From assembly GCA_016793775.1 (NCBI GenBank), contig JAEULK010000082.1, positions 1 to 52,555 on the forward strand: a DNA stretch of 52,555 nt, in the 5' to 3' direction. This stretch comes from Sphingopyxis sp. (lineage in GTDB: Bacteria; Pseudomonadota; Alphaproteobacteria; Sphingomonadales; Sphingomonadaceae). Both the position numbers and the translations under genes were made by a program. Numbering within the stretch: the first letter of the stretch is position 1; each line of letters starts with the position of its first letter. A model generated the notes under the pieces. The model saw only the letters and a program-made list of their open reading frames with translations. It did no database searches and had not been told where the DNA came from. This document shows, in pieces, positions 9,110 to 9,261 of the stretch.

Positions 9110-9261
9110 GAGTCCGGCGGAGTCCGCCGTCAAGCCCGGGATTCTAGGGATTCCGCGTGTAACAATGGTTAACGGGGTGGGAACGAAACGAGTCCCACAC
9201 AGCATATGGAGTCTCGCCCGAATCGCGGACTCAACCGGTGGTGGTGTGGCGAAGAGGACTC
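9110..9261. promoter_or_regulatory. cluster of nine GANTC sites upstream of ccrM
   Basis: GANTC pentamers start at 9110, 9120, 9140, 9149, 9190, 9209, 9220, 9228 and 9257. At about 65% GC roughly one site per 300 bp is expected, so about 0.5 in this stretch. The cluster occupies the promoter region of ccrM (start 9072), whose product methylates this very sequence. A minus-strand TTGACG is present near 9130, and a TTAAC-containing inverted motif near 9161-9175 could be a CtrA-like half site, but spacing does not match the full CtrA consensus. Confidence 0.8.

Follow-up and report, generated by a model that had tools for sequence, protein, structure and literature searches.

A dense GANTC array upstream of ccrM in Sphingopyxis: a candidate methylation-sensitive promoter with an upstream dyad operator

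GANTC is the methylation target of the CcrM family. What does it mean, then, when a gene for such a methylase is itself preceded by a dense array of GANTC sites? The question is raised by a contig of Sphingopyxis sp., analysed here as a whole stretch of 52,555 nt (the window). The original prediction placed nine GANTC sites within 152 bp (9110-9261) before ccrM. All nine are there, starting at 9110, 9120, 9140, 9149, 9190, 9209, 9220, 9228 and 9257, and all fall within the 199-bp gap (9091-9289) between ccrM and the next gene upstream. The genes concerned are as follows.

7933-9090, minus strand: ccrM, orphan adenine methyltransferase by NCBIfam NF050803
9290-10186, minus strand: gene for an SDR-family oxidoreductase, upstream of ccrM on the same strand
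10214-10768, minus strand: rnhB, identified from sequence, upstream of ccrM on the same strand

The methylase gene and the density of the array

The ccrM product matches NF050803 over profile positions 2-349 of 350 (E 3.6e-180, 598 bits). The score is below the curated cut-off of 830, a value that none of 387 genomes of the class reaches, nor does the Caulobacter control. Judged by sequence family, the product is a predicted CcrM. Full-length ccrM is present as a single copy in the genome, and the other methylase-like match is remote (31% identity). The closest relatives among the matches listed are those of Sphingopyxis (L003-L010), with protein identities of 89-94%. The listed ATG is at 9090 and an alternative ATG is at 9072. 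The sequence AGGGG (9080-9084) stands seven bases before ATG 9072 and is better placed for it than for 9090, and ATG 9072 is the more likely true start.

Could the array be a product of chance, or of ordinary enrichment between genes? In most Alphaproteobacteria GANTC is at least 1.5-fold over-represented in intergenic regions, as quoted in PMC7987155. The window as a whole holds 61 GANTC sites versus 250.7 +/- 13.6 in 100 dinucleotide shuffles. This depletion of about fourfold is compatible with GANTC methylation by CcrM, and nothing stronger is claimed from it. The expected number of sites in 152 bp is about 0.7 at the shuffle density and about 0.18 at the real density, which makes the earlier expectation of about 0.5 a fair one. 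When the 199-bp gap was shuffled 20,000 times, the mean was 1.40 sites, the maximum was 7 and nine sites were never obtained (0/20,000). Copy numbers of the remaining 15 xyNy'x' pentamers, palindromic like GANTC, are 0-2 each in the same gap. Elsewhere in the window there are never more than two GANTC sites per 152 bp. In a 1,066,502-bp sample of the genome (27% of it, window included) the density is 1.27 per kb, and the array is the densest 152 bp, with a runner-up of 5 sites. The number of sites upstream of ccrM in other genomes and their conservation (see below) point the same way as the shuffles and the genome sample. Chance or intergenic enrichment is therefore refuted as a sufficient explanation of the array, and as an account of the cluster it is very improbable.

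The runner-up lies at L200 377-560 (own genome, C14, ~40377). It is upstream of a small ORF, which is followed by a frame for a PmbA/TldD-like metallopeptidase, named from sequence.

Conserved sites, a putative core promoter and a dyad

Two comparisons were made. One set consists of the own region and those of the best 80 of 595 relatives, these 80 being named Sphingomonadales loci (81 aligned regions). The other covers the class, with 82 loci from 65 families, drawn from the better-scoring listed part of the 291 of 387 genomes with ccrM. Among the best 80 of 595 relatives, the most GANTC-dense 200 bp of the locus is upstream of ccrM in 76 and tied in 4, and the best 200-bp window there holds 3-10 sites (median 6). 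The array thus passed the comparison with related sphingomonads that had been proposed along with the original prediction. Loci of other families have at least 3 GANTC sites in 350 bp in 62/80 cases, at least 7 in 11/80 and none in 3/80. A ccrM promoter with several GANTC sites is a common thing across the class and not peculiar to this genome. The ccrM promoter of Caulobacter crescentus has two GANTC by the published description in a review (PMC10073500), few as had been said, versus nine here.

The sites and the elements among them are listed below. Counts out of 72 refer to the non-Sphingopyxis members of the alignment of the own region with the best 80 of 595 relatives.

9105-9110, minus strand: presumed -10-like hexamer CATCAG, located by allowing a 17-bp spacer after TTGACG; a weak match to TATAAT
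9110-9114, minus strand: GANTC site -24, core site 2; GACTC on the ccrM strand, running into the -10-like hexamer by one base (exact in 52/72; N = C41 T6 A5)
9120-9124, minus strand: GANTC site -34, core site 1; within the promoter spacer (exact column in 15/72, within 4 columns in 56/72)
9129-9133, minus strand: TTGAC, -35-like element
9140-9144, minus strand: GANTC site -54, lineage-specific (6/8 Sphingopyxis; elsewhere 0/72 exact, 18/72 within 4 columns)
9149-9153, minus strand: GANTC site -63, lineage-specific (8/8 Sphingopyxis; elsewhere 4/72 exact, 13/72 within 4 columns)
9165-9172, minus strand: TTAACCAT, CtrA half-site-like
9190-9194, minus strand: GANTC site -104, dyad, outer right (exact in 38/72; N = C34 T4)
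9198-9243, minus strand: dyad, with left arm CACCACCGGTTGAGTC (9228-9243) and right arm GACTCCATATGCTGTG (9198-9213)
9209-9213, minus strand: GANTC site -123, dyad, inner right (exact in 59/72; N = C in 59/59)
9220-9224, minus strand: GANTC site -134, between the dyad arms, lineage-specific (7/8 Sphingopyxis; elsewhere 0/72 exact, 15/72 within 4 columns)
9228-9232, minus strand: GANTC site -142, dyad, inner left (exact in 54/72; N = G in 54/54)
9243-9248, minus strand: CACACC block adjoining the dyad (in 57 of the 81 regions, own plus best 80 of 595)
9257-9261, minus strand: GANTC site -171, outer left (exact in 67/72; N = G in 67/67)

GANTC is better conserved than control pentamers of this region, with a mean conservation of 0.45 versus 0.15 (median 0.04). 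Conservation is uneven: in the 72 non-Sphingopyxis loci six of the nine persist, whereas -134, -63 and -54 hardly do. The middle bases of the distal sites are fixed or nearly so, which indicates a constraint there beyond the GANTC specificity of CcrM. What becomes of the idea that the nine sites form a graded switch operated by hemimethylation? Conserved sites in the ccrM promoter region speak for part of it. However, uneven conservation together with fixed distal middle bases makes a plain graded tally of hemimethylated sites a poorer reading than two modules.

The first of these modules is the putative core promoter. CTTGAC occurs in 79 of the 81 upstream regions (own plus best 80 of 595) versus 49 of 1824 background windows, and TTGAC is present in all 72 aligned rows from outside Sphingopyxis. 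The pattern TTGAC-N12..16-GANTC is found in 61 of the same 81 regions, own included. Among 64 other families of Alphaproteobacteria, 36 have it at ccrM, a family being scored positive if any of its sampled loci has it, and in 32 of the positive families the gap is exactly 14. It was not seen in the other 28/64, and background windows from the same loci have it in 2/1744 cases. A second GANTC is located in the spacer of the core in 32 of the 36 positive families, and its N is G11 C9 A8 T4. Such freedom across families would be expected if GANTC itself, and with it methylation, mattered at that position; a free base is unlike the trace of a factor that reads GAGTC. In the own region, two sites (9120-9124 and 9110-9114) lie between the presumed -35 and -10 elements, as in a GcrA-sigma70 methylated promoter. 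The remaining 7/9 are outside the stretch from TTGAC to -10.

A stricter two-site core, TTGAC-N5-GANTC-N6-GANTC, occurs at only one other place in the 1.07-Mb sample, before a gene for an ftsB/divIC-like septum protein (L204 67-100; own C19, ~20067).

The second module is the dyad. Its consensus is CAAGATATTGAGTC-N14/15-GACTCAATATCTTG, these being the arms outside Sphingopyxis in the dyad alignment, and the Sphingopyxis form is degenerate. Two models were searched against 387 genomes of the class. R1 describes the distal block by sequence only (16 Sphingomonadales sequences) and R2 the dyad alone (19 sequences from several families). Each matches a single place in the own genome, the dyad, R1 doing so on both strands. 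At E<=0.01, R1 matched 18 genomes, namely the own, 5 of its family and 12 others, and 10 of these 12 outside matches are directly upstream of ccrM. At E<=0.1, R2 matched 65/387 genomes. In the best 30 of these 65 (E<=0.0036), 29 loci are at ccrM; after removal of the 12 genomes used to build the model the figure is 17/18, with some of the 18 being close kin of one another. Weaker R2 matches include 12 repeated, repeat-like ones in G348. In the dyad alignment GA-N-TC is found in both arms of 19/19 rows while the flanking columns vary, although the rows were picked by a pattern that requires GANTC.

An RNA structure was considered and rejected. The arms have 5 two-sided changes versus 5.3 in shuffles, and an Rfam search of 8900-9500 for an RNA element or riboswitch returned two matches at chance level (E 0.72 and 4.8). 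The lack of covariation between the arms favours a dimer-bound dyad in DNA over a stem in RNA. Half-sites ACAAGATATTGA are retained upstream of ccrM at L153 (G138) and L119 (G046) despite loss of GANTC there. L153, from a genome without detectable GcrA, has the half-site ACAAGATATTGAG and zero GANTC in 350 bp. These two loci hint at a factor that may need the flank rather than the mark.

Is the dyad tied to the promoter, and the whole region to ccrM? The distance that separates TTGAC and the right inner GANTC could be measured in the 54 of 81 loci (own plus best 80 of 595) with a strict dyad. It is 64 bp in 2 loci, 73-75 bp in 42 and 83-86 bp in 10. On a quick CcrM tree without bootstrap (76 rows, 5 of the 81 having been dropped, 50 of them labelled), these classes require at least 8 changes. 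Two apparent exceptions, 55 bp (L064) and 67 bp (L044), arise from loss of the inner right GANTC, the pattern having caught the outer one. The classes differ by roughly one turn of the helix and no value falls at a half turn, which suggests a contact that requires the same face of the DNA. A mutational bias to 10-bp duplications would likewise yield 10-bp steps. Distances between GANTC pairs in Sphingomonadales have their maximum at about 9.75-10 bp (mean cosine 0.65). Phasing at 10 bp throughout the class was considered and rejected. One locus from each of 64 other families gives a weak signal (0.06 at 10 bp, 0.16 at 11.25 bp), part of which comes from the core pair. The distance from dyad to TTGAC in other families is 27-60 bp, with no phase in common with Sphingomonadales. 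Helical phasing of the dyad against the promoter is claimed inside Sphingomonadales only.

As for the gene, across 48 loci the distance from the rnhB stop to the dyad ranges from -1 to 2559 bp, whereas that from the dyad to ccrM is just 129-187 bp. G276, a genome of the own family, seemed to be a relative without the array. In fact its array is intact further upstream (L166), behind an inverted-repeat insert of ~270 bp that separates it from the ccrM start (~340-615 in ccrM direction) and probably lies within the transcribed leader. The narrow range of this distance and the intact region in G276 mean that the element belongs to ccrM.

Possible readers of the sites

The preferred reading, with a probability of roughly 0.55, is that the ccrM control region combines a methylation-sensitive core promoter with a ccrM-specific dyad operator in helical register with it. 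The core would be of sigma-70 type, consisting of TTGAC, a GANTC in the spacer and a GANTC touching the -10-like hexamer. Its activity most likely varies with methylation of these two sites, and CcrM output would thereby be tied to the moment when the ccrM locus is replicated. The dyad, some 75 bp upstream, has two inner half-sites that both end in GAGTC. A sequence-specific dimeric factor may bind it and reach the promoter complex over an integral number of helical turns, and methylated GANTC cores in the dyad might aid or impede that factor. Sites -134, -63 and -54 would be filler between the conserved modules. In genomes that encode GcrA, this one included, the core is most likely read by GcrA-sigma70, and methylation would then be activating. 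A bolder version is put forward tentatively: the dyad could serve a regulator devoted to ccrM, either CcrM or an unnamed factor, as an operator that reads methylation at its two GANTC cores and acts through a helically phased contact on a two-site methylation-sensitive promoter. Shared by distant families and nearly private to one gene per genome, it would form a two-module methylation feedback circuit on the methylase.

Several observations count against the two-module reading. Most sites are not between TTGAC and -10, and three are hardly conserved beyond Sphingopyxis. A fixed distal middle base suits an ordinary sequence-specific factor indifferent to methylation. L153 keeps a half-site without GANTC, and 28 of 64 families do not have the core pattern. 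The GcrA part is further burdened by the extended GcrA motif and by genomes without GcrA, to which the argument now turns.

What if the system is simply GcrA-sigma70 activation? Methylated GANTC would recruit GcrA-RNA polymerase and switch ccrM on in a positive feedback, with the distal sites storing or stacking GcrA. The odds of this are below even, but several observations favour it. The own genome encodes GcrA (231 aa, L083), and Caulobacter promoters with GANTC between -35 and -10, the arrangement seen here, are described as firing at 40-60 min (PMC4287350). GcrA is reported to bind fully methylated GANTC better than hemimethylated and the latter better than unmethylated sites, and to cover more DNA in the fully methylated case (PMC3667746). 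Moreover, ccrM is a predicted core GcrA target, named as likely GcrA-controlled in many of the 13 species of a comparison that counted extended GANTC motifs (PMC7987155). However, the extended motif YGAKTCK is not enriched. It fits 1/9 sites here, -134, which is not a core site, and 126 of 497 sites in the 81 regions (own plus best 80 of 595), the share of ~0.25 expected by chance. Nor does the core depend on GcrA across genomes. Thirteen alphaproteobacterial genomes (G234, G323, G260, G116, G346, G118, G064, G242, G020, G138, G055, G048 and G147) have ccrM, and an alignment search of them for GcrA gave no match while recovering both positive controls; they are 92-100% complete, and some of the absences may be assembly gaps. 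The core is present in 10 of these 13 versus 36 of 67 with GcrA (Fisher p 0.14), and the mean GANTC count is 4.07 with GcrA and 4.00 without. GcrA as sole reader is thereby weakened, and as universal reader of the marks it is doubtful. Given the core in GcrA-negative genomes, RNA polymerase or another factor must be capable of using this promoter.

The sign of the methylation effect could go either way, given a core that also occurs where GcrA is undetected and a Caulobacter ccrM promoter said to be more active when hemimethylated (PMC10073500). The latter is the model for another rival, a hemimethylation-on switch, in which full methylation damps ccrM, passage of the fork activates it and new CcrM shuts it off again, perhaps with RNA polymerase as the sensor. 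GcrA is unnecessary for this, consistent with the GcrA-negative genomes, and one GANTC touches the -10-like hexamer. On the other hand, the dyad and its fixed middle bases are left unexplained, and in Caulobacter the ftsZ and mipZ promoters are reported to be activated by GANTC methylation (PMC3708114). The switch is possible, although on the unlikely side. Similarly doubtful is the proposal that the distal block has no methylation role at all, being the operator of a factor whose motif includes GAGTC, with the GANTC count as a by-product. Fixed middle bases fit this, as do a dyad that reaches well beyond GANTC, the lack of RNA-type covariation and the GANTC-free half-site at L153. CAA-N4-TTG, an NtrX-type box, occurs in many dyad arms outside Sphingopyxis, and ccrM transcripts are reported to be up in an ntrX mutant of S. 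meliloti (both PMC9223101). Nevertheless, CAA-N4-TTG is missing from the Sphingopyxis arms, boxes for NtrX should occur at many genes whereas the dyad is confined to ccrM, and every dyad row keeps GA-N-TC, even if that is partly built into the choice of rows.

Other inputs may act on the region as well. We take TTAACCAT to resemble a CtrA half site. On either strand it occurs in 32 of the 81 upstream regions (own plus best 80 of 595) versus 0/1824 background windows. The full CtrA box, TTAA-N7-TTAA, as in Caulobacter, is found in 0/81 of these Sphingomonadales regions. In S. meliloti, ccrM is reported to be bound and supported by CtrA (PMC4433202). Exact DnaA boxes (TTATCCACA) are present in 34 of the 81 regions of this set (e.g., L053, L060 and L080) versus 1/1824 background windows, and in 18 of those 34 the box is 28-29 bp downstream of the TTGAC start. 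The own 199-bp gap has no exact DnaA box. DnaA motifs before ccrM have been predicted in some Alphaproteobacteria, mainly where CtrA sites are missing (PMC2877005).

Known systems and significance

How does the region compare with what is known? Like that of C. crescentus, it has GANTC in the promoter of a GANTC methylase gene; CtrA input is known in that organism, and here there is the TTAACCAT half site. As Haakonsen and colleagues reportedly described in 2015 (cited through PMC7403470), C. crescentus has GcrA-sigma70 dependent methylated promoters (ctrA P1, mipZ and ftsN). The likeness to these lies in GANTC between -35 and -10 and in a genome that encodes GcrA. Unlike them, this region has two phased GANTC sites and an upstream dyad, YGAKTCK is unenriched, and the core is also present where GcrA is undetected. 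The predicted GcrA regulon in PMC7987155 agrees in naming ccrM, whereas the available part of that study says nothing of how the sites are arranged or spaced, of a dyad or of a core promoter. A comparative scan of Alphaproteobacteria likewise covered GANTC, DnaA and CtrA motifs upstream of ccrM, but the part available gives averages of 0.4-1.5 GANTC per promoter and draws no conclusion on methylation control (PMC2877005). Neither the dyad nor the two-site core seen across the class was found described in the literature searched, from which subscription papers were mostly absent; this is not proof of novelty.

CcrM timing in Alphaproteobacteria is known mainly from Caulobacter, which is described as atypical for GcrA control of ccrM, the Caulobacterales reportedly having lost their predicted GcrA control of the gene (PMC7987155). 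The two-module region of Sphingopyxis offers an explicit, testable design, with two methylatable bases in the core and a dyad with methylatable half-sites. The dyad is almost exclusive to ccrM, and a specific regulator is therefore suspected, one that a single DNA probe could retrieve. All this bears on how a methylase senses completion of its work. The array, arranged as a putative promoter and a mirror-image element that distant relatives share, suggests that ccrM is controlled in part by the mark its product makes.
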